Shown here: positions 47,009 to 63,976 of the stretch, piece by piece
Layout of the letters: every line of letters starts with the position of its first letter
Position numbering within the stretch: position 1 is the stretch's first letter
DNA from: Candidatus Eisenbacteria bacterium
GTDB taxonomy: Bacteria; Eisenbacteria; RBG-16-71-46; CAIMUX01; JAHJDP01
Length of the DNA stretch: 64,000 nt
NCBI GenBank assembly: GCA_018831195.1
Contig: JAHJDP010000012.1
Coordinates: 62,001-126,000, forward strand
Direction of reading: 5' to 3'
Notes under the pieces: model-generated
Seen by the model: only the letters and a program-made list of their open reading frames with translations
Databases searched by the model: none
What the model was told of the DNA's origin: nothing
Made by a program: the position numbers and the translations under genes

Positions 47009-48184
47009 TTAACCCGCTGACGAGCTGGGGGCTTCCAGTTCCTTCTTTTGCTTCTCTTTATTGGTGATCGTCACGAATTGCTCCATTCGTTCGATCTCAC
47101 TTGAACATTGCCGGGCACAGAATGATCCATTGACGCATTTTTCAAATTGGGTGATGGCATCCCGGAAAAAACCGACGGCCTCGTCATATCGCTCTGCGGC
47201 CTTGGCGTCTTTTGCTTTGGATTCATACACTTTACCGGAGGCGTAGTACAGACACTGATAAGAGGGATCCTGCCGCAAGCCTCTCTCAACGACATTGAGC
47301 GCCTTGTCATAGGCTTTCGAATCGTTATACATCAGCGCCAGATTGTAGAAGTTCTCCAGCTTCTCCGGTTCGTGTTCGGTGATATACTCGTACTCTTCCG
47401 CCGCCTCCATGGCGAGTCCGGCTTTTTTGAGACAGAGCGCCAGAATCTTGTGCTCGAAGAGGGAACTCGGACTTTCAGGCTCCGCTTCCAATACGGCTCG
47501 ATAGATCGGGATAGCCTTTTCGGAGAGTTGAACCTGGAAATAGAAATAGCCCAGGATCCTCTGAATGGAAATATCCTCCGGCTGCTTCGCATAGAGCATT
47601 TCGTAAAGGTTCATCGCCTCCAGGTAGAGCTTCTTGTCGAGGGCGGTGCGGGCGGCCTGCTGCAACCCGACGATGTCGCTCGGATCGACCGACAGAACCA
47701 TCTTGGCCATCATCAATGCTTCCGGCCAGGAACCCTGTCTTTCATAAAGATAGGCAAGATTTTTGTATATCCCATGCCGCTCGGGATCCAAATCCAAAAT
47801 ATCCTGATAAAGGCGGATTGATTTCTCCAGATCACCCGAGGCGCCGTAGGTATAGGCCAGCGCCTCTTTAATAGAGAGGTTCCGAGGCTCCACCTCCAAG
47901 GCCCTCTGGTAAATATCGATAGCATCCGGATATTTTTTCAGTTGCGTTAGAACGTGTCCGAGATTGAGGTAGGCGTCGATATGATCGGGGCATGTTTCCA
48001 CCACAAGGGTGAAAAACTCCTCCGCATCCTGATACTTGAGATTCTTCTTGTACTCCATGGCGGTTTGGAAATTCTTCCGGCAGATCTCCTCGGTTGAAAA
48101 GACCTCGCTCTGAGCTTCCGCGGCTGTCCACCCCGCGATTGAAAATAGAAGCAGGAAGGTCCATCCCGCTGTCATGAGTTTCAT
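47009..48184 (-). CDS. Secreted TPR-repeat protein
   Basis: About 391 aa: a signal peptide (MKLMTAGWTFLLLFSIAGWTAAEAQ written in parts: hydrophobic core FLLLFSIAG, cleavage near AEA) followed by about eight tetratricopeptide repeats (AYLNLGHVLTQLKKYPDAI; IYKNLAYLYERQGSWPEAL; FYNLALMYNDSKAYDKAL). It ends with a Cys-containing helix. Such proteins act as periplasmic scaffolds; no partner can be named. ATG 48184 has GAGG 8 nt upstream; ATG 48208 is an alternative. It lies 134 nt after a second TPR gene. Confidence 0.75.
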   Translation of the reverse strand: MKLMTAGWTFLLLFSIAGWTAAEAQSEVFSTEEICRKNFQTAMEYKKNLKYQDAEEFFTLVVETCPDHIDAYLNLGHVLTQLKKYPDAIDIYQRALEVEPRNLSIKEALAYTYGASGDLEKSIRLYQDILDLDPERHGIYKNLAYLYERQGSWPEALMMAKMVLSVDPSDIVGLQQAARTALDKKLYLEAMNLYEMLYAKQPEDISIQRILGYFYFQVQLSEKAIPIYRAVLEAEPESPSSLFEHKILALCLKKAGLAMEAAEEYEYITEHEPEKLENFYNLALMYNDSKAYDKALNVVERGLRQDPSYQCLYYASGKVYESKAKDAKAAERYDEAVGFFRDAITQFEKCVNGSFCARQCSSEIERMEQFVTITNKEKQKKELEAPSSSAG

Positions 48185-48318
48185 ATTGGCAATCCTCAAA
48201 TGCGCCATCTTTATCACCCCACTGGTCACCCCGAACCAAACATTTCTTGAATTCAAAGTATCAGAGCCCCTTGGGAGGGTCAAGCCGCTCCGGGAGGATC
48301 CGAAACAGACGCCGCCGC

Positions 48319-49053
48319 TCAGTCGCCTCTCTTCATCACATTCCGGAGAACGCGGATATTATCTTGAGCCTGGCGGGCGGCATCTGATTTAGGATCGATC
48401 TGCGCCACCTGCCTCCACTCCCTGATCGCCTCTTCATATATACCCGCGTCGGCGAATGCCACTCCCAAATTATAATGGGCCAGCTGACTTTCCGGATCGA
48501 TACTCAACGCCTTGGTATAGAGGTCCACCGCCTTGGCGAAATTTTCCAAGGAGTAGTAGGCCAAGCCAAGATTGCAGAGAGCCATTACATCATCCGGAGC
48601 GTGGGCAACCGCGTATTCCAAATGGAGGATGGCTTCTTCCGCCTTCCCTGTCTCATTCAGCACGACACCCAAGTTTACGCGTGATGGAAGGTGATCGGGA
48701 TCTCTTCGGATCGCCTCTTCGAAGGCGTACCGGGCCAGATCCCTTTGACCTTCGTCGTAGTAGACATTTCCAAGTTCGTAGAATTTCTGAACACCGACTG
48801 TATCGGAACGCATCGCTTCCCAAGCGCTTTTATGCTCCTCGGTCTGCGGGGGCGGGAGATACGATGCATCCAGAACGCTGGGCCGCGGCTCGATGACGGT
48901 CATCGGCGGGGTGGAATCGTGAAATTCCGGGGGCTCCGCCTTCACGGGAGGCCGATTTTCCTGCTGGGCCGCCACCCCCCACTGAATGAGAACGATCAGT
49001 AAGACAGCTGATCCCAAAACCTGAACCCAACGAAACCTCTGAGACCTTTTCAA
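48319..49053 (-). CDS. Secreted TPR-repeat protein (shorter)
   Basis: 244 aa: an N-terminal hydrophobic signal or anchor (VLGSAVLLIVLIQWGVAAQ), a proline-rich linker, then four TPRs (FYELGNVYYDEGQRDLARYA; SRVNLGVVLNETGKAEEAI; ALCNLGLAYYSLENFAKAV; AHYNLGVAFADAGIYEEAI). The start is TTG with GGAGG 8 nt upstream. It is transcribed before the larger TPR gene, and together they look like a two-gene unit. Confidence 0.75.
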   Translation of the reverse strand: MKRSQRFRWVQVLGSAVLLIVLIQWGVAAQQENRPPVKAEPPEFHDSTPPMTVIEPRPSVLDASYLPPPQTEEHKSAWEAMRSDTVGVQKFYELGNVYYDEGQRDLARYAFEEAIRRDPDHLPSRVNLGVVLNETGKAEEAILHLEYAVAHAPDDVMALCNLGLAYYSLENFAKAVDLYTKALSIDPESQLAHYNLGVAFADAGIYEEAIREWRQVAQIDPKSDAARQAQDNIRVLRNVMKRGD

Positions 49054-49335: not shown

Positions 49336-52300
49336 TTACCGAATCATGGTGACTCTCCGGACGATCGTCTTCGGTCCCGACACCCGTGCAAAGTAGATCC
49401 CTGAGCCGGCGGGGTGGCCGTTCTCGGTTTTCCCATCCCACAAAATGATCTGCGGATTCTCGAGCACCGGCCCGCGCCATAACGATCGAATCTTCCGCCC
49501 GGCCGTATCATAAATCGTCACCGTCACTGGGAGACCCGGCGGAGCCTGAAGCCGGAAGGTTGTGGCGCCCGCACAGGGATTGGGCGCCGGCTTTGAAAAA
49601 TCGAGAAGAACTCGTCCCGGATTGAGATCAACTGCTCCCAGAATCTGCTCCGAGCCATCGGGAAGAATCATAACGAGGGCATACAGCAGGGCGACGTCGC
49701 GAGGTGGATCCGGATCGATAAAAGTACAGGTTGTGCAGACCGGAAGGGAGACGGATGTGAGCCGTGCCGGTTCGCCCTCGGGCCACTCACGGCGGTCGAT
49801 ATGGAGGGCCGGCGGATCGATATCATGCGCGATGAACCAGGTGAGTTGGACCCGCTTATCGACCCACTCTGCGTCGAGCCCCCACATGAGGAGCGGAACG
49901 GCGTCGCAACCGATCCCATAAGCCCCGATCGTATCGGGCCATCCTATGGCATTGTTAAAGGGGAGCGCGGGGCTCCCGGGACCGATACGGTAATCGCCGT
50001 TCTGGAAATCGCAAAAGAGAGGATCGGCGACAAGATTGGAGTCGGCCCAGTTGGGGAAATTATTCCTGATATCTGAAGAGACCCCGGATCGATAAAGGAT
50101 ATTCCCGGCGAAATCCGGTTCAATGGATTTGCTTTCTGTTATTTCAGCGGGATCTCCGCCGGAAGGCCTAATAGGCGGTCGTGACTGTATGTGGTGCTGG
50201 GTTTCGAGGAGCGTCGGCAGTGGGACACCTTCCCCCACATAGATCCCAACAAAGATATTCCCGGTCCAATGGATTGCCTGGTGAGGGTATTGCCAAATGT
50301 AACCCTCGCCGCCCAGGCTGATGAACGAATTGCGCTCGACGAGATCCCCTTCAGAAAACTCGCTTTCCGGGTAGCTGCTGTCAAAAAGATTCTTCAGGAT
50401 CGTGCACTGGCCGCTGGTTCCCAGATCACCCGGCAAACCGGAATTGTTACTGAAGAGATTTCCCCGGATAAAGGACCCGGCGCGTGCGGACAGCCCGCCG
50501 ATCCCGCCGAAATTCCAGCAATCATCATAGGGATCTACATTACTATAACTATGATTATTCCGAATTTTATTGCCGGTCACCTCGGAGCTCACGGCATAGA
50601 TACCGCCTCCATTGGGCGAACCGTTATTCTGAATCAGGTTGCGCTCCAGCCCGGCATCGGAGCAGCAAACGCCACCGCCGCTGCCATGGTACGAATCGCA
50701 GGGATTCGTCGGCCAATGGCCGGGACTGATCTCAACGGAATGATTATTTTGTATAATATTGCCGATCACGCGGGAATGATTGTCGGCATAAATCCCGCCG
50801 CCACAGGGTGAATAAGATGAGGAATCACCCTCGGCCAGGTTGTTTTCTATGATACATCCTTGTACGAGCGCTGGGGCGTCACAACGGAGTCCTGCGCCGA
50901 TCCGCTGCCGCCCACCGGTTAGAGTGAAACCGCCCAGTTCCGCAAAGGTGCCGCATTCTTCCTGAATCGTCACCACCCGCTGATTGAGACCTGCCGCCGT
51001 GATCGTCGTCACCTCAGGTCCGTCGGTGCTGAGAAGACGGATTGATTTCCCTTGAAAGCTTATACTTTCATTGTACTCGCCCGGTCCGACCAAAATTTTG
51101 ACGCCATCCAGGGCGCCGTCAATGGCGGCCTGAATCGTCGGATACTCTTCCGGGACGCGTAGGATACTATAACCAAGAAGTGTAAAAGCCTCCTCCAACA
51201 CCAGCAGATCACCGTTGGGATTCTGCACCTCCATGTTATATTTCCCGATGATCGCATCCGACAGATCAAAGAGGGCATGGATCGAATCGGGTTGCCAAAT
51301 CGTCTGCTCGATGCCTGCATAGGATTCCCCTGTCGCAACGCACCGAAGAGAGGCCTGGCCATTCAGCAGGATCGGGTATCCTCGGATGCCGACCCGGACC
51401 GAATCAAAGGCGCGGCCGTTATCGGGTGTGATCGATGACAACGCCCCGGAAAGAACCCGCAGGCTTGATTTAAGCCTCTGTACGTCACCATTCTGATGGG
51501 TGGCTTCAAGATCATAGACGCCGGCCGGGGCGGCATAAAAGGGAGAGGGAATCTTGGCGCTGCGGCCGTCTGCACTGACAATAGGCTCCACGGGAAAATC
51601 AAGCGCATCGTGTTCGCTGGTGAAATGCCAATCCTGAATGGTCCCCAGCTCCCAACCGCTGATTGTGAGCGTATCCCGCCCCAGATAGTCCACCTCTCTC
51701 GGACTCACCCCGCTGACGACGGGATCATCACAACCGATCGAAACTCCGGCGATCGTGTCGCAATCGTCACCCATACCGGCCGTTCTATTTTCGGCGAGAA
51801 GCGGGCTCAGGGCATGCACGGAAAAATCACGCAACGTCATATCACAGAAAAGCGGATCCTCCTGAAAATTGCCATAGCTCGTGCGAATATGGGTCATCCC
51901 CTCACCGTAAGCGCCGGTATTCCAGAAATCATTGCAAGAGACTCTGCGCTCATCACTATCTCGAGCCGCGATCAGTGTATCGGCGCAGTAAAAGAGGTTA
52001 TGGTTGATCGTTTGCCACACCGGATCCTTCACCCTTACCGAACGGGTGAAGATATTATCCACCAGTCCAATGCGGGGCGCGTTTTGCGCCTGAAGATCCG
52101 CCGGGGCGTTAAGGGTAAAACGGCACCTCATCACCGCATAGTAGGCGGCATCATCGACGTCGACCGCTGAACCCGAGGGGCTTTCCGCCTGATTCCCATG
52201 AAAGCGGCATCGCTGCAGAATCAGTGAATCCGCGCCGCTGGCATAGATCGCACCGCCGCACACGGAATCATCCCGAAGGGTTGACCTGTTTTGGAGAAAG

Positions 52301-54171
52301 GTGCAATCAGAGACAATGAGCGACACCCCTTCGGCGTACAACCCTCCTCCCCTTTCCGCTTCACCGCCTGTTATTGTTAAACCAGAAAGGAAGCAGGGCC
52401 GGGGCGCCGCCGGCGGAATCGTGATCACCGGGCGATGCCATCCCGCTCCAGTGATAATGGTTTCATCGGACCCCTGTGTTCCCTCCAACTCCAGGAACTT
52501 CCCCCCAAAATCAAGCGCTTCATAATAGGTGCCCGGCTCGATTTCAATCTTGACCCCGCTCACGGCGATATCGATCGCTCCCTGGATCGTCCCGGCATCC
52601 CCGGGCACGGTGAGCACCCGGCCGGCGGGGATCGTGAAGGCCTCCTCCATGAATAAATGATCCTGATTGGGATTTTCGATGTGGAGATTATATACCCCCA
52701 AAGAGGCCTGGGTCAGATCGAAGATCGCTTCGATGGAGTCGGGTTCCAGAACGCACATTTCAAAGGGTCTGAGAAGTTCACCGGTAAGGCGGCTTTCCAG
52801 CCACAGATCCAGACCGAGCAGAAAGGAACGGCCATGTATCGTGACCGGCACATGATTCAGAATCCAATCGGTGTCATAAACGACAGACGTAATGTTGCCT
52901 TGCACAACCTCAATCGAGTTCTCAAGTCTCAGCATCTCGCCTTCGAGCGTGGCGGCCTCTAATGTATAGATGGCGGGTTCCCGCCCATAGAATGGAGAGG
53001 GAAAGATCGCGGCACGCCCCGCTGGAAGCACGAGGGGATCAATCGGAATGGAATCGAATCCGGCGCTCGTAAGGGTCCAAGAGTCCAATTCATCAAGACG
53101 GTAACCCGCCACCGTGAGCTCTTCACGACCGGAATAGGTCAGGCGGGATGGAGTTATCGAAATGAGAACCACGGTGGTGCAGCCGGCTTCAAAATTGCCG
53201 ATGGCTGAACAATCACAGCCCCGCGGATGATTCCCCGGCAGCAAGGGACTCAGAACATGAGCCGTGGGGGAGGCGAAGATCGGAACGCAGAGATGGGGAT
53301 CTTCGCGAACCGTGCAGGAATCAAAGAATGCCGTTTCCATGCCGGCGCCGGATACGGATGTTTGCCAAAAGGCATTGCAGAAGACGCGGTGGTCCAGGGG
53401 TGTATGCTGCGCCTCAAGGGTTCCGGCATCGTAAAAGAGATTGCTTTCGATGATTTGATGCCGAGGCGTCCCGATCACGACATCATTGGTAAAGAGGTTG
53501 CCGATCAGAACAACCGTTACCGTCCCGCTGGTCGAAAGATCCAAGGGGTCATTTCGCAGAAATCTGCAGCGTTCCAAATGGAATTGTTCACCACCATCGA
53601 GATGAACCGTCGCGGCCTCTCCTGACACCCAAGACCGGTTATCCAGAAACTGGCAATCCTCGATTCGGAGATCCGGCGATTGCTGCGCATAAACGGCGTT
53701 GCCTTTGCCGGGACCATTGCCATAAAAGGCGCGATTATGGGAAAAAACACAGTTCTTTATAATGAGGGGAGCCTGATCTACCCGAATCGCACCCCCTCTT
53801 GCGGACTTCCCGTAGGCCAGCGTGAATCCATTGATCTCCGATGCGAGGGTATTGTCGATGACGGTGATGAGGGTTGCTTCATCCGCGCCATATAGAATCG
53901 TCGTCCCCGCCCCTTCGCGGCCGAGAAGGGTGACGCCGCCGGGCAGGTCCGGGAATTGCTGGTAAGATCCCGGCCCCACGCTCACCGTATCGCCCGGCAT
54001 GACAAGATTGAGGGCCCTCTGCAGGTTGGACTCGTCTTCCGGAACACGGATCGTTGCCGGGAGAACAGCTTCGGAAAGAACGGCCGACAACAGCATAACC
54101 ATGGCGAGGAGCGGGCAGGGCTCCCGCATCGGCCGGCAGCCATCTCTTCTCATCATCCTCACGGGCTCCAT
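49336..54171 (-). CDS. Giant secreted parallel beta-helix protein with IPT-like spacers and FlgD-like C-terminus
   Basis: 1,611 aa from ATG 54171 (GGAG upstream; the frame is open to 54231). A signal peptide (about 16-40) is followed by three right-handed beta-helix modules (about 40-330, 520-840, 1010-1400). Each starts with a VPEDESNLQRAL / VPGDAGTIQGAI / VPEEYPTIQAAI segment and continues with coils rich in N, C and G (NCVFSHNRAFY, RCRFHGNQAE, IIQNNHS). Modules 1 and 2 are followed by IPT/TIG-like Ig domains (SRLTYSGREELTVAGYRL; REVDYLGRDTLTISGWEL). The C-terminus (about 1520-1611) is FlgD-like: PNPCAGATTFRL, VTIYDTAGRKIRSL, GSGIYFARV. A surface carbohydrate-active or adhesive role is inferred. 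Confidence 0.8.
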   Translation of the reverse strand: MEPVRMMRRDGCRPMREPCPLLAMVMLLSAVLSEAVLPATIRVPEDESNLQRALNLVMPGDTVSVGPGSYQQFPDLPGGVTLLGREGAGTTILYGADEATLITVIDNTLASEINGFTLAYGKSARGGAIRVDQAPLIIKNCVFSHNRAFYGNGPGKGNAVYAQQSPDLRIEDCQFLDNRSWVSGEAATVHLDGGEQFHLERCRFLRNDPLDLSTSGTVTVVLIGNLFTNDVVIGTPRHQIIESNLFYDAGTLEAQHTPLDHRVFCNAFWQTSVSGAGMETAFFDSCTVREDPHLCVPIFASPTAHVLSPLLPGNHPRGCDCSAIGNFEAGCTTVVLISITPSRLTYSGREELTVAGYRLDELDSWTLTSAGFDSIPIDPLVLPAGRAAIFPSPFYGREPAIYTLEAATLEGEMLRLENSIEVVQGNITSVVYDTDWILNHVPVTIHGRSFLLGLDLWLESRLTGELLRPFEMCVLEPDSIEAIFDLTQASLGVYNLHIENPNQDHLFMEEAFTIPAGRVLTVPGDAGTIQGAIDIAVSGVKIEIEPGTYYEALDFGGKFLELEGTQGSDETIITGAGWHRPVITIPPAAPRPCFLSGLTITGGEAERGGGLYAEGVSLIVSDCTFLQNRSTLRDDSVCGGAIYASGADSLILQRCRFHGNQAESPSGSAVDVDDAAYYAVMRCRFTLNAPADLQAQNAPRIGLVDNIFTRSVRVKDPVWQTINHNLFYCADTLIAARDSDERRVSCNDFWNTGAYGEGMTHIRTSYGNFQEDPLFCDMTLRDFSVHALSPLLAENRTAGMGDDCDTIAGVSIGCDDPVVSGVSPREVDYLGRDTLTISGWELGTIQDWHFTSEHDALDFPVEPIVSADGRSAKIPSPFYAAPAGVYDLEATHQNGDVQRLKSSLRVLSGALSSITPDNGRAFDSVRVGIRGYPILLNGQASLRCVATGESYAGIEQTIWQPDSIHALFDLSDAIIGKYNMEVQNPNGDLLVLEEAFTLLGYSILRVPEEYPTIQAAIDGALDGVKILVGPGEYNESISFQGKSIRLLSTDGPEVTTITAAGLNQRVVTIQEECGTFAELGGFTLTGGRQRIGAGLRCDAPALVQGCIIENNLAEGDSSSYSPCGGGIYADNHSRVIGNIIQNNHSVEISPGHWPTNPCDSYHGSGGGVCCSDAGLERNLIQNNGSPNGGGIYAVSSEVTGNKIRNNHSYSNVDPYDDCWNFGGIGGLSARAGSFIRGNLFSNNSGLPGDLGTSGQCTILKNLFDSSYPESEFSEGDLVERNSFISLGGEGYIWQYPHQAIHWTGNIFVGIYVGEGVPLPTLLETQHHIQSRPPIRPSGGDPAEITESKSIEPDFAGNILYRSGVSSDIRNNFPNWADSNLVADPLFCDFQNGDYRIGPGSPALPFNNAIGWPDTIGAYGIGCDAVPLLMWGLDAEWVDKRVQLTWFIAHDIDPPALHIDRREWPEGEPARLTSVSLPVCTTCTFIDPDPPRDVALLYALVMILPDGSEQILGAVDLNPGRVLLDFSKPAPNPCAGATTFRLQAPPGLPVTVTIYDTAGRKIRSLWRGPVLENPQIILWDGKTENGHPAGSGIYFARVSGPKTIVRRVTMIR

Positions 54172-54443: not shown

Positions 54444-55193
54444 ATGAAAAAAGCACGCAACACCTTATTCGTCATTCTGTTAGCCGTTTTCATCCTGGCG
54501 CCGGCATCAGAGGCATCCCTCTTCCTCTCCTCTTGGGGGATTTCCTACGGCAATTGGGATCCGGTCTCCACTTTGGCGCCATCGCATATCGCCTATAGTG
54601 TCGAGGATTGGACGGGTAGTCCGAGTGATGGATACCTGGACCCCGGATATGGCGGCAATGGCTATGATGTCGAGGCGGTCTATGCCGGTTGCGACAATGA
54701 CTATTTCTATGTTGCCGTTGTCACGGGATTTCCTATCGCCGGCCGCCGTTCGGGCGATGAAATTTTCGCCCCCGGAGACATTGCCATCGACACCAATCTC
54801 GATAATATCTATGACCTGGCCGTCGATACCGACGCGGGTGGCACATTGCGTCAAACCAATCTGACTTGGGAAAACCCCTCGGTCGGCGGGCATCCGGTTT
54901 GGGGCGGGGCTTCCGATCCTCTGCGGGTCACCGGCTGGAGCCAATCCTCCGCTCCGGCGGCCTGGTCCTACGGCGCTTTCCATGGACGGTATGCGATCGA
55001 AGCGATGATTGACCGGAGTTTTCTAGGTTCCGAAACGGGATTCGCGATGCATTGGACGATGGGATGCGGCAACGATGTCGGTGAAGTCAGACTCGACTGC
55101 ACACCGCCGGTGCCGGAACCAGCCAGTCTCGGTCTTCTCGGTCTCGGGCTGATGGGCGGCGGACTGCTTCGCCGGCTGAGACACAAGAAATAG
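54444..55193 (+). CDS. PEP-CTERM sorting-domain secreted protein
   Basis: 249 aa: a signal peptide (LFVILLAVFILAPASEA), a Gly/Asp-rich beta domain (SSWGISYGNWDPVSTLAPSH; DNDYFYVAVVTGFPIA; DIAIDTNLDNIYDLAVDTD), then a PEP-CTERM tail with VPEPASLGLLGLGLMGGGLL and the basic stop RRLRHKK. The tail predicts processing by an exosortase; none is in the window. AAGGAG lies 8 nt before the ATG. It stands alone on the plus strand between a promoter and a strong terminator. Confidence 0.85.
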   Translation: MKKARNTLFVILLAVFILAPASEASLFLSSWGISYGNWDPVSTLAPSHIAYSVEDWTGSPSDGYLDPGYGGNGYDVEAVYAGCDNDYFYVAVVTGFPIAGRRSGDEIFAPGDIAIDTNLDNIYDLAVDTDAGGTLRQTNLTWENPSVGGHPVWGGASDPLRVTGWSQSSAPAAWSYGAFHGRYAIEAMIDRSFLGSETGFAMHWTMGCGNDVGEVRLDCTPPVPEPASLGLLGLGLMGGGLLRRLRHKK

Positions 55194-58351: not shown

Positions 58352-61300
58352 TCATCGCAACAGGATCAACCGCCGGATTTGCCGACGTTGTGGATCGGAC
58401 AAGCGGGCGAAATAAACGCCGCTGGCCACAGGATTCCGGATCTCATTCCTTCCATCCCATTCCACATTGTAAAAGCCGGGATCATGCCGGCCATCCGCCA
58501 GACGCCGGATCATACGGCCATTAACATCGTAAATCACCAGGCTGATCTCTTCCCGTCTTGGAACACCGAAGCGAAGAATCGTTCTGCTTCCAAACGGGTT
58601 GGGTTTGGGGGAATCGAGGACAAGGCGGATAGGATTTCCAGGCACAGAAATGTGAACAGGCCCCAGGTGATGAACACCGCCGTCAGGGAGCAGGGCGGCG
58701 ATCAGGTATTCATAATCACGCCCCGCCTCGGCGGAATCATCCTCAAACAGCAACGCACCCCATCCGACAACAGGCTGCTGCGGGTTTAACGTTTCATAAA
58801 TATCCTCGCTGCCCGCGATACGCCGCTGGATAAGGTATCCGGACGGCTGGATGTCGGATTCGACTTCCCACATCAGGAGAACCTTGCCGTCAGATGTAAC
58901 CTCAGCCCGGGCGTACCTTAAAAACACAGGGGTCAATGCGAGATGAACGAAGGCTGCCATTGGTTTTATAAAGTATGGATTGGCCGAGACGATGACATAG
59001 TCATCGGTGGTGGGGTTGTAACGAAACACGGCGCCGGGGTGCCCGCCAAGAACAAGAGGATCCGCGTCGCTATCGACGACAAGAAGGCTGTTGTTTTTGT
59101 CCATGAAAAGATCGACGGGCCGTCGGAAATGTTTCGATTGCGAGTGGAAGCTGACCGTTCCATCATGAATCCTGAACACCGCGCCCACGGCGCCCGTCTC
59201 GGGATTAAACATGGCGCCGCGATCCAATACAAAGAGATCCCCCGCCGGATGAACCAAGACGCGGTAGGGATCGACAAACAGCGTGTCGCTGGCTATAACC
59301 TGGAGATCATTTGTATAGAGGTCCAGGCGGAAAATGGCCCCGGGCCGATTCCCCAACTCAAAAGGATCGGCGTTCATATCCGCAATGTACAACCCTCCGT
59401 TGTCATCCAGATCGATTCCAATGGGAATAGACAACGCCGAATCGGAATAAGCGACCTCCACATCGCCGCTGGGAAGATCGACTCTGTATATGGCGCCGTG
59501 CCGTGACGGGAAAGCGTAGGGGTTCGCCAGTGGATCCACGACAAAGATGAGATTTTCATTGACGACGACCATCTGGGCGGGATCCAGGAATGTCGGTTCC
59601 GCCGCAAGAAAATGGAGCGAACCATCGCCGATCTCTACTTTATACAAAGCGCCGCGATGGTTGCCATAGCCCATCGGATCGGCATCCGAATCGAGAAGCA
59701 CCAGGGTTTCATCTTCCAATGATAGGACTTCGGCGTCGATCGGAGTGTACAATTCACTTCCGCTTGTAACGAGCTGCAAATTACCGGAAGGCATACCTAT
59801 TCTAAAAACACCGCCGACAGGAATACCCGTGTTCAATGGGTCAATATCCGAATCGACGACATAGACCGCTCCTGGAATCAGGTTCATTCTCACAACATGA
59901 ACGAGTTTCTTGGCCCCTCCCCAGCGGCCACTGGAGCCGTAAACCTCCGCAACCCTCTCAATCCGGGTGCCCGGCGGGGTCACAGGGTCCAGGATCGCCT
60001 GATAGGAAATTTCCGCGGAGTCACCGGCCGCGATAACCCCTTCCCAGCGGAATACGGCGCCTTGGTCGCTTCCAATGACCTCAAATGTCCCATTGTCCGC
60101 CTGGAAGCTCCCTTCCTGTAGCGTAAGAATGGAGGGGAGTGTATCGACATAGGCGGCTTCAGGCTCGATTGTCTGTCCCGTGTTGGCCACGACGGCGTGA
60201 TATGTGATCAGGTCGCCGGGATCCAGCATACCGCCATTGACATCCACTGAAGCAAGGTTTCGCAAGACGGCGATCGGCCTGGGAATATAAAGAAAATTCC
60301 GAAGAGCGCGGAATTGATTTGTATAAGCAAGGTAGTTGACCGCTCGCGTATCGGGATCCACCGTGAGAATCGCTCCGACAAGATCCTGGCCGATGGGATC
60401 GGCGCCCCGGTCGGCGACCATGACCATCCCATCTTCCCGGACCTGTGAGCGGCCGGGCATGGTAAAGTAAGGCGAATGGGCATAGACTTGAACATTCGAT
60501 GTGGCGGGATCAATCGTAAAGAGAGCGCCGGTTCTTGCCGGGTAGCCGTAAGGATCTGAAAACTCATCGGTGAGCAGGATCCTTCCGTCAGGGAGGAGAT
60601 CCAGGTCTTTGGGATCAACAAAGTAGTCGGAAACAATTGTCTCCACCAACGCCCCTGTTTCACCGTCAAGACGAAAAACAGCGCCGGTATTCCTGCCGGT
60701 TCCCTGCGGATCAGCACTGATATCGGCGACATAGATATCGCCGTTTCCGGCCCGAACCAGGCTTTGAGGTTTGCGGAAAGGTTCTGCCGCGGAGAAGAGA
60801 TGCATCGGACCCTGCAAGCTCTCGAGACGGAAGATCGCCCCCTTGCGTTCCGGTACAGGATCCTGAAAGGGGTCGGCCAATTCGTCCACAATCAGAAATT
60901 CGCCGCCGTCGGCTTTCAACTCGACCGGCGAATAGAGATTGTCGCTCCAATAGAGCAAATCCAACATGCCCGTGAACAGATCAAGATAGAAAATGGCGCC
61001 CGTCGCGTGATCCAACCCGGCCGGGTTGGCCGACGCATCCAGGATTACGATATTCCCCTCTCCATCCAGTGCCGCTGACACGGGATCGCTTAGAGCCCGA
61101 TCACTAAATAGGGCGCGCGATCCAACACCATCCTCATCCATTAATAGAAGCGCCCCCGGCCGGTTGCCAAGACCCAACGGATCGGAATCGCGGTCGACCG
61201 CGATAAGATCTCCCTGGCGAAGGGGGGTGACCAGTCGAAAAGTTAAAGGGGGTAATCCATCGAACAGACCCCCGCCGATCTTGAAGTTCACATTATAGGG

Positions 61301-63976
61301 TTCCCAGAAGCTGACTTCCCCCTGGGGATCCATCACAAAGTTGGCAATGAGGTCCAGCGATTCATCCCGCCGCACCGAGCCCAGCCAGAGGGCGCCGTTG
61401 CTCCCCGCCATGATACCGATATGCCCTGAATCGGCGGAGACGGAAACGATTTCTATCCCCGGCAATCCGCTGAATTCAGCATTGATCGTTTTCGCATCCA
61501 CCACACCCGTGTTCTTCACAATGGCATGAACCCGGACTGTATCCCCCGGCAAGAGCGGCGGTCCGTCAATATCCGCGCCTTCGAACCACGATTCTCTGAA
61601 ATCTCCTTGCCCGAAAATCGTCAGGCATGTTGGATCATTGAGACGCCAGCTTTCCAGCTGGGTGGTCAATATATTTCCTGCAATGTTATAGCGCCAGATA
61701 GCGCCGCGATTTCCTCCCATATTGTTGGGATCGGCGTCAATATCGGCGAGGAGGATATCACCAAGGGTATCTTGTACTCCGCTGGTCGGGCCGACGAGCC
61801 TGGAATCCGCAAAAAAGAGCCGTACCGAGCCGTCCGATCGATCGATCTCAAAAAGGGCGCCGGTCGGAGAACCTATCCCCAGGGGATCGGCCGACCGGTC
61901 CACCACCAAGAGACGTCCATCCTTCAAAGGAATCAGACCACGTGGATCGACAAAGTCGGGATGTGTAAAAGTTCGGAGCACTTCTCCAGTGGTAGGATCC
62001 AATTCAAAGACGGCGCCGGGATCACCACCCAAACCGAGGGGATCGGCGGCGACATCCGCCACCATCAGCCGGCCGTATTGATCCAATAAAAGATCAATCG
62101 GGTGAAGAAAGGGCTCACCGACACGAAGCGATTCAGGTTGATACGTTGACCGCGAGAGCTTATAAACACCGCCCGGCTCGTCCGGAAAGGGAAAGGGACG
62201 CGGAACACCGACATCCGCGACATAGATCTGGTCGCCGGCTCCCAAGGCGACCGCGGCCGGCGTTCTCACGGGGAGCCCGGCGGCGAGGGGCGAAACCTCG
62301 CCCCAGCCTGGATCCATGACAAAGATGGCGCCGGCTTCTCCTGCTACAATATCGGCTTTGGAATCGGCAATGATCAGGTAGCCGTCGGATCGGAACACCA
62401 ATCCGGCGGGAGCAACCAATTGCTGCGACTCGGTGAGGGACACCAGCCCCCCAATACTTGTGTCGAGACTATAAATTCCCGTGGGGTCACTGACAACGAC
62501 TGTCCAGGCATCCAGTGCGGCCGGCAACCCAACCCGCCACTCCATCTTGAAATCCGTCTGATTGGAGAGTCCCCGGATGTATTGTTCAACAGGAGTCCTT
62601 GCATATTCCTCTACACGAATCCGGAATGTAATCAACTCCTGGGCGCCGGGAGCCAGAGAACTCGTCCAGCTGAGTCCCGGCAGATCCTGCAAATACTTGA
62701 ATTCTCCGCTCGCGGCCACTTCCGATCCGGGTAATAATGTTATGCCGGTCTTGAAACTGTCGACGACCGTCAGCCGGCCCGTATCCTCATCTCCGGTATT
62801 CCGCAGTTTCAGCCGCACCTCCATCGGATCACCTCGGCCGAGCGGCGGGCCGTTGAGATCCCCGACCGTAATCGTCGACGAGTCAAGGTCCGCGCCATAA
62901 ACGGGAACCAGCGTTCTGCAGAGGACAAAGCCATCCCGGCTCCAGGTGCCCAAAACCTGGTTGGTTTCCGGGTCCATCTCAAAGACAGCCCCCTGACCAT
63001 CCTCCAGTTGAAGAGGATCGGCGGTGCGATCGAGTACAAATAGACGGCCATCCCGAAGCATCGCCACATCGACGGGATCGCGAAAGAATTGATGGCTGGC
63101 CAGGGTATCGGCAATCGTCAGGGTGGATCGGTCCACCAGGTAAACCGCTCCCGGCGCGCCGCCGATGCGGAAGGGATCCGAATCCCGGTCCAGCAAAATA
63201 TAGTCATCATCCGGCGTTCGTCGTAGCGATGTTAGGTTTGTGAAACCCGCCTGGGAGAAAAGGCACGTCATTTCAAATGTTGATGGATCCAGTCGGAAGA
63301 TAGCTCCCGGCCCTCCACCCACACCCAGCGGATCGGCCAAACGATCGAGAATAAGGTAGCTGCCGTCGAAATCCTCGATGATTCGAACCAGATCCCGGAA
63401 TTCCGGCGAAGAGGCGAGAATCTCCTCATACTGCGTTACCGGATCAATACGAAAAACGGCCCCGATCGGGGATCCCGTGCCGAGAGGATCGGCGCGCCGA
63501 TCCAAGACAATAAGGCGATTTTCGGAATCGACCAGGATACTGATCGGTTCAGAAAAACGAGGAGAAGCCGCCATAAGCTCCGCATCTTGCGACGGATAAT
63601 GATAGGGATCGATCCGGAAGACGGCCCCATTGTTATCTCCAAATCCTCTTGGATCAGCTTCGGCATCGGTCACATAAAGAAACTTCTGATGGGCCACAAA
63701 GAGATCTGTGGGATCGACAAAATCGGAAGGAGATGAGATGAGGATGACGGTATTCGCGACATCGGGATTGATGGTAAAGGCCGCTCCCGGATCTGAGTGA
63801 ATATGGTAGGGGTCTGACATCCGGTCCAAAACCATGAGATTGCCGGAGTAGAAACGCATTTCGCCGGGGGCGGGAGTGGAGACGAGGATGAGCAAGGCGA
63901 CCAGGATAGGGAAGCCACCTCGCAGAACCTTCCAGCCTGTTCGGAGATGTCGAGGGTCGCACTCGCAGCGGTACAT
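58352..63976 (-). CDS. Giant secreted protein: four sets of six propeller-type repeats, three Ig spacers, FlgD-like C-terminus
   Basis: 1,874 aa with a signal peptide (about 20-38). 24 repeats of about 53 residues follow the pattern LxVLDRxADPxGxGxxxGAVFRIDP, in sets at about 45-360, 488-790, 922-1232 and 1368-1678. DUF11/CARDB-like Ig domains (DLNGPPLGRGDPMEVRL; DIDGPPLLPGDTVRVHA; LDPGDLITYHAVVANTG) sit between the sets. A fibronectin-III-like part (1685-1780) and a FlgD-like domain (1788-1874: PNPFGSRTILRF, VIYDVNGRMIRRL, ASGVYFARL) end it. Each set of six suggests one six-bladed propeller; the Asp/Asn cluster in each repeat may bind calcium. The start at 63976 has AAAGGG upstream and looks complete. 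Function unknown; surface display is inferred. Confidence 0.82.
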   Translation of the reverse strand: MYRCECDPRHLRTGWKVLRGGFPILVALLILVSTPAPGEMRFYSGNLMVLDRMSDPYHIHSDPGAAFTINPDVANTVILISSPSDFVDPTDLFVAHQKFLYVTDAEADPRGFGDNNGAVFRIDPYHYPSQDAELMAASPRFSEPISILVDSENRLIVLDRRADPLGTGSPIGAVFRIDPVTQYEEILASSPEFRDLVRIIEDFDGSYLILDRLADPLGVGGGPGAIFRLDPSTFEMTCLFSQAGFTNLTSLRRTPDDDYILLDRDSDPFRIGGAPGAVYLVDRSTLTIADTLASHQFFRDPVDVAMLRDGRLFVLDRTADPLQLEDGQGAVFEMDPETNQVLGTWSRDGFVLCRTLVPVYGADLDSSTITVGDLNGPPLGRGDPMEVRLKLRNTGDEDTGRLTVVDSFKTGITLLPGSEVAASGEFKYLQDLPGLSWTSSLAPGAQELITFRIRVEEYARTPVEQYIRGLSNQTDFKMEWRVGLPAALDAWTVVVSDPTGIYSLDTSIGGLVSLTESQQLVAPAGLVFRSDGYLIIADSKADIVAGEAGAIFVMDPGWGEVSPLAAGLPVRTPAAVALGAGDQIYVADVGVPRPFPFPDEPGGVYKLSRSTYQPESLRVGEPFLHPIDLLLDQYGRLMVADVAADPLGLGGDPGAVFELDPTTGEVLRTFTHPDFVDPRGLIPLKDGRLLVVDRSADPLGIGSPTGALFEIDRSDGSVRLFFADSRLVGPTSGVQDTLGDILLADIDADPNNMGGNRGAIWRYNIAGNILTTQLESWRLNDPTCLTIFGQGDFRESWFEGADIDGPPLLPGDTVRVHAIVKNTGVVDAKTINAEFSGLPGIEIVSVSADSGHIGIMAGSNGALWLGSVRRDESLDLIANFVMDPQGEVSFWEPYNVNFKIGGGLFDGLPPLTFRLVTPLRQGDLIAVDRDSDPLGLGNRPGALLLMDEDGVGSRALFSDRALSDPVSAALDGEGNIVILDASANPAGLDHATGAIFYLDLFTGMLDLLYWSDNLYSPVELKADGGEFLIVDELADPFQDPVPERKGAIFRLESLQGPMHLFSAAEPFRKPQSLVRAGNGDIYVADISADPQGTGRNTGAVFRLDGETGALVETIVSDYFVDPKDLDLLPDGRILLTDEFSDPYGYPARTGALFTIDPATSNVQVYAHSPYFTMPGRSQVREDGMVMVADRGADPIGQDLVGAILTVDPDTRAVNYLAYTNQFRALRNFLYIPRPIAVLRNLASVDVNGGMLDPGDLITYHAVVANTGQTIEPEAAYVDTLPSILTLQEGSFQADNGTFEVIGSDQGAVFRWEGVIAAGDSAEISYQAILDPVTPPGTRIERVAEVYGSSGRWGGAKKLVHVVRMNLIPGAVYVVDSDIDPLNTGIPVGGVFRIGMPSGNLQLVTSGSELYTPIDAEVLSLEDETLVLLDSDADPMGYGNHRGALYKVEIGDGSLHFLAAEPTFLDPAQMVVVNENLIFVVDPLANPYAFPSRHGAIYRVDLPSGDVEVAYSDSALSIPIGIDLDDNGGLYIADMNADPFELGNRPGAIFRLDLYTNDLQVIASDTLFVDPYRVLVHPAGDLFVLDRGAMFNPETGAVGAVFRIHDGTVSFHSQSKHFRRPVDLFMDKNNSLLVVDSDADPLVLGGHPGAVFRYNPTTDDYVIVSANPYFIKPMAAFVHLALTPVFLRYARAEVTSDGKVLLMWEVESDIQPSGYLIQRRIAGSEDIYETLNPQQPVVGWGALLFEDDSAEAGRDYEYLIAALLPDGGVHHLGPVHISVPGNPIRLVLDSPKPNPFGSRTILRFGVPRREEISLVIYDVNGRMIRRLADGRHDPGFYNVEWDGRNEIRNPVASGVYFARLSDPQRRQIRRLILLR
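58940..63850 (-). repeat. 24 diverged ~160-bp coding repeats (DP..G.G...GAVFR.DP)
   Basis: Coding repeats of the giant protein. Repeats within a set are spaced about 52-53 codons apart (for example at residues 48, 100, 156, 208, 260, 313). They are clearly related in protein but strongly diverged in DNA, so they are not a recent tandem expansion. The seventh repeat (about residue 490) is the most degenerate. Confidence 0.8.

Follow-up and report, generated by a model that had tools for sequence, protein, structure and literature searches.

The window, the whole 64,000-nucleotide stretch of Candidatus Eisenbacteria DNA that was analysed, carries on its minus strand a gene for a protein in which predicted beta-helices alternate with immunoglobulin-like domains. 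It is a single uninterrupted open reading frame of 1611 codons with a GGAGAG, resembling a ribosome site, 7 nt 5' of the ATG at 54171. The order of the domains is probable signal peptide, beta-helix H1, Ig pair I1, beta-helix H2, Ig pair I2, beta-helix H3, an FnIII-like domain and a FlgD-like C-terminus. The signal peptide was assigned by inspection of the sequence; in two paralogues encoded by the same genome, C4 and C74, the first helix begins after an equivalent boundary. The parts are as follows.

49336..54171, minus strand: whole gene, 1611 aa, ATG start, GGAGAG upstream
54055..54171, minus strand: probable Sec signal peptide, aa 1-39; basic, hydrophobic, ending LPA/T, without lipobox
53170..54054, minus strand: predicted beta-helix module H1, aa 40-334 (module comparison, AlphaFold)
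52624..53169, minus strand: paired Ig/IPT-like spacer I1, aa 335-516 (module comparison, Foldseek, TIG homology)
51730..52623, minus strand: predicted beta-helix module H2, aa 517-814 (similarity to H1)
51166..51729, minus strand: paired Ig/IPT-like spacer I2, aa 815-1002 (Pfam TIG, PF01833, 19.4 bits, slightly under the cut-off of 20.9)
49885..51165, minus strand: predicted beta-helix module H3, aa 1003-1429, longer (similarity to the C4 and C74 helices, AlphaFold)
49591..49884, minus strand: FnIII-like domain, aa 1430-1527 (paralogue comparison, AlphaFold, Foldseek)
49339..49590, minus strand: FlgD-like C-terminal domain, a predicted T9SS type A sorting domain, aa 1528-1611 (profile matches)

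Each helix or spacer module has a net charge of about -14 to -24. Two TPR proteins are encoded directly downstream on the same strand (47009-49053), while a divergent gene upstream (54444-55193, plus strand) encodes a PEP-CTERM protein.

The modules were cut at their apparent boundaries and all compared pairwise, with Smith-Waterman z values calculated against 200 shuffles each. H1 and H2 align end-to-end (296 aa, 31% identity, E 9e-46, z = 68) and I1 and I2 are 38% identical over 182 residues (E 2.6e-43, z = 62), from which it follows that H1-I1 and H2-I2 constitute a co-linear tandem duplication some 480 residues long. The third predicted helix, H3, is longer and divergent; its identity to H2 (z = 34) is 39% in the first 135 residues and 35% in the last 74, and its comparison with H1 gives z = 20. 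All pairs of a helix with an Ig module gave z values of 2.3 or less. The internal doubling of helix plus IPT domains, proposed in the first-pass annotation, is thus borne out by the H1/H2 and I1/I2 statistics, and the similarity that it assumed among the three helices lies far beyond chance. The duplication must be old, since no near-identical DNA repeats remain in the gene.

The beta-helix fold that had been assigned to the modules is supported by the strand pattern of structural models and by similarity to known beta-helix proteins. AlphaFold predicts for both H1-I1 (pLDDT 79.8) and H3-F (pLDDT 72.9; F stands for the C-terminal end) the short-strand series of a beta-helix followed by Ig-like sandwiches, from shallow alignments of 5 and 8 sequences, respectively, and with low confidence in part of H3 (about model residues 316-353 and nearby stretches). 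The window protein remains under the Pfam cut-offs for Beta_helix (PF13229) and NosD and exceeds that of Chlam_PMP (23.5 bits, cut-off 20.6); its relatives C4, C23, G007 and G040 exceed the PF13229 cut-off. With the NosD/Chlamydia-PMP-like right-handed beta-helix proteins (PF13229, PF05048, PF02415) it has in common the VPxDxxTIQxAI cap and the GGA[IV] and CxFxxN steps, but it differs from them in having three helices with Ig pairs in between, and a T9SS domain in place of an autotransporter barrel. Two details of the coil sequence called for correction. A TIQ-AI opening had been claimed for every module, which does not hold for the first opening segment, VPEDESNLQRAL. The ladder of CxF motifs ascribed to the later coils is present in H2 (622, 654, 682) and also in H1 (aa 140, 172, 201), but H3 has none. 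Fixed-period autocorrelation of the coils yielded nothing above shuffles in any module, which indicates that coil length varies.

The paired IPT/Ig-like domains described between the helices find support from two sides. Both spacers share homology with TIG arrays in L127 (best E 4e-10), which themselves score 54.6 bits against the cut-off of 20.9; compared with such IPT/TIG arrays (PF01833), the spacers here hold two domains each. In Foldseek searches I1 resembles a tandem of Ig domains and the F end a tandem of FnIII-like ones, the top matches being mostly tandem Ig/FnIII pairs with low TM-scores and hence usable as support for the spacer and FnIII assignments only.

The FlgD-like domain is a predicted sorting domain of type A for the type IX secretion system (T9SS), a point overlooked in the first-pass annotation. 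The C-terminal 84 residues score over the curated NCBIfam cut-off of 23 for this domain (TIGR04183), with 24.0 bits for the whole-protein query and 28.9 bits for the genome frame, and a search of the PDB with an H3-F profile matched FlgD and the PorU chain 6za2 across the C-terminal domain. The end of the protein had been called the same as that of a propeller protein nearby, and this was confirmed; the latter, an NHL-propeller/DUF11 protein of 1874 aa (58352-63976, minus strand), likewise carries this type A sorting domain. The genome encodes no fewer than 150 such domains, as well as SprA (549.7 bits, cut-off 200), PorU (549 bits, cut-off 420) and, adjoining PorU, a member of the PorV family (180.5 bits, cut-off 90). 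GldM gave no match with TIGR03517 in the genome; the controls were equally silent, so its absence is not proven. A relative of the M6-like T9SS-associated metalloproteases follows PorU and PorV on the same strand in an operon-like arrangement (L058:2936-11769, contig C61 of genome G000).

Two papers on Bacteroidota describe the type A domain as an outer-membrane export signal, which in P. gingivalis is cut off by PorU (PMC4804311, PMC11285876). Such sorting domains may work in one species and not in another (PMC11285876). The combination of a type A domain with SprA, PorU and PorV in the genome would provide the protein with an export route, and it supports the surface location that had been suggested for it. 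Like the known T9SS type A cargo (TIGR04183 Por_Secre_tail; e.g. gingipain RgpB, PMC4804311) the protein combines a probable, hydrophobic N-terminal signal with a C-terminal Ig-like sorting domain, and the SprA, PorU and PorV of those systems recur in this genome; it differs in that the cargo here consists of several beta-helix modules, that the genome gave no GldM match, and that its export is predicted from sequence. The protein is one of 150 or more predicted type A cargo proteins in a genome with SprA, PorU and PorV; an early survey reported T9SS from Bacteroidetes only (PMC4793230).

Taken together, the protein is likely to be a surface rod or adhesin that is exported by the T9SS and lacks catalytic activity, its export, cleavage, rod shape and adhesion being what we infer from these features. 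It would be made with a Sec signal peptide and enter the periplasm, where recognition of the C-terminal Ig-like type A domain would lead to export via the SprA/PorV type IX translocon. PorU would then probably cut off the C-terminal domain and fix the remainder to the outer surface, on which the H-I-H-I-H array could form a long, stiff and negatively charged rod, most likely an adhesin or binding scaffold and not an enzyme.

The paralogues place this rod in a series of lengths. C4 (1123 aa) has the order H-I-H-F with one H-I unit and C74 (659 aa) the order H-F with zero, so that proteins with 0, 1 and 2 units have the same F end in common; the C-terminal domain of the triple-helix protein is 58% identical to that of C4 and 47% to that of C74, and H3 has 45% identity with the final C4 helix as well as with the C74 helix. 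H-I-H-F is also found in C23 and its relative in G007, from another family of the order. Of the 47 genomes in the phylum, 2 clearly contain the paired spacer and two others have TIG arrays that match it weakly; the three-helix architecture was seen in one gene only. A whole-protein search of genome contigs returned a single weak match, in a Bacteroidia bin and to the first helix only. In a tree of the modules the last helices of the window protein, C4 and C74 cluster (93/95), as do H1 and C4_Ha (85/86). The third module probably arose when the H-I unit was duplicated within a shorter H-I-H-F ancestor, and the tree is compatible with a duplication either earlier or later than the split from C4. 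A surface rod would thereby lengthen by helix-plus-Ig duplication, and a single genome has kept the forms with 0, 1 and 2 units. A passive structural layer or part of a stalk, such as an S-layer-like sheath, could give rise to just such a length series, and a spacer role would agree with the charge and with stiff modules; we nevertheless regard this as unlikely, given that the triple-module gene was seen once only and that there is no sign of the expected abundance or self-assembly.

The helices themselves raise the question of enzymatic activity. Profile A2 matches the alginate lyase BcAlyPL6 (7dmk, E 7e-7), profile A3 the pectinesterase 1xg2 (E 5e-5), and C74 has a weak Pectinesterase score (17.5 bits, cut-off 27), which speaks for a surface carbohydrate-active enzyme with repeated catalytic helices of the pectate-lyase, pectinesterase or alginate-lyase type. 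However, the similarity to PL6 and pectinesterases is limited to the N-terminal cap and first coils. The catalytic residues of these families lie mostly beyond that region. A profile search found no CAZyme family at cut-off in the window protein, and the invariant columns of the helix alignments are taken up by residues of a structural kind such as Gly, Cys, Phe, Asn and Pro, besides one His and one Tyr; D, E, K and R are nowhere invariant. With no catalytic signature in either the CAZyme search or the helix alignments, the enzyme reading was set low and appears improbable. The absence of such signatures, which had been proposed as the check that would separate enzyme from adhesin, fits adhesion and thus favours a non-catalytic surface rod or adhesin; no ligand site or known adhesin family was recognised in the window protein, and adhesion itself is presumed. 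That the FlgD-like end is no more than a generic Ig domain, the protein exiting by another route or remaining periplasmic, is very improbable, for although the FlgD_ig fold is broad, the score against T9SS models modest and GldM undetected, TIGR04183 exceeds its cut-off in all of those 150 or more proteins and the genome has SprA, PorU and PorV. As a putative exported rod the protein is known in kind and fairly ordinary.

Of wider consequence is a putative second C-terminal label, borne by homologous beta-helix proteins without a T9SS domain. These end instead in a short tail with the consensus P-T-P-[VT]-x-x-[ST]-T-W-G-x-I-K-[SA]-L-Y-R-stop. WGxIKxxY occurs in 56 copies in the own genome (0 for a reversed-pattern control), and it lies 8-15 residues ahead of the stop in 30/30 of the matches inspected there (e.g. 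L055, L065-L094) and in every inspected match from relatives in the phylum (L098-L123). Across the 47 genomes of the phylum there are about 353 matches, compared with 2 for the control, and the tail is present in 44 of them, including 26/26 of good quality. Twelve genomes from outside the phylum gave 3 matches and no convincing tail, one match being internal and two tiny chance frames. The tail is attached to very different bodies, with 25 mutually dissimilar families among 51 distinct proteins and PPC, beta-helix and FGE-sulfatase among the types. Of the 53 rows of tail proteins, among them 2 chance matches in genomes beyond the phylum and some frames whose start was misjudged, 44 show a hydrophobic N-terminus. 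No NCBIfam model covers the WGxIKxLYR tail, four exact variants of it were not found in the literature searched, and the 64-kb window is free of the tail.

The tail is probably an apparently undescribed candidate sorting tag, with a role in sorting or anchoring suggested by its position, the predicted export of its bearers and its spread over unrelated bodies. One exosortase is encoded in the genome (G000:C72:11085-11831, L131; 210.8 bits), and together with the PEP-CTERM neighbour of the triple-helix gene it indicates that T9SS and exosortase exist side by side here, possibly with the WGxIK tail as a third system. We lean slightly towards the view that beta-helix bodies take interchangeable C-terminal labels, either T9SS type A or the tail of a hitherto unrecognised sorting or anchoring route that almost all genomes of the phylum would have in addition to T9SS and exosortase/PEP-CTERM. 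A short, phylum-wide tail on exported proteins would be a new sorting signal open to direct testing, and this outweighs the finding of the rod. Among the tail proteins, four single-helix proteins of about 365-400 aa, all WGxIK-tailed and without a T9SS domain, are encoded in tandem at L055 (contig C120 of G000). In a relative, a WGxIK-tailed protein of the FGE-sulfatase type (L112:1498-2475) is a distant relative of GldK (75.9 bits, cut-off 350).
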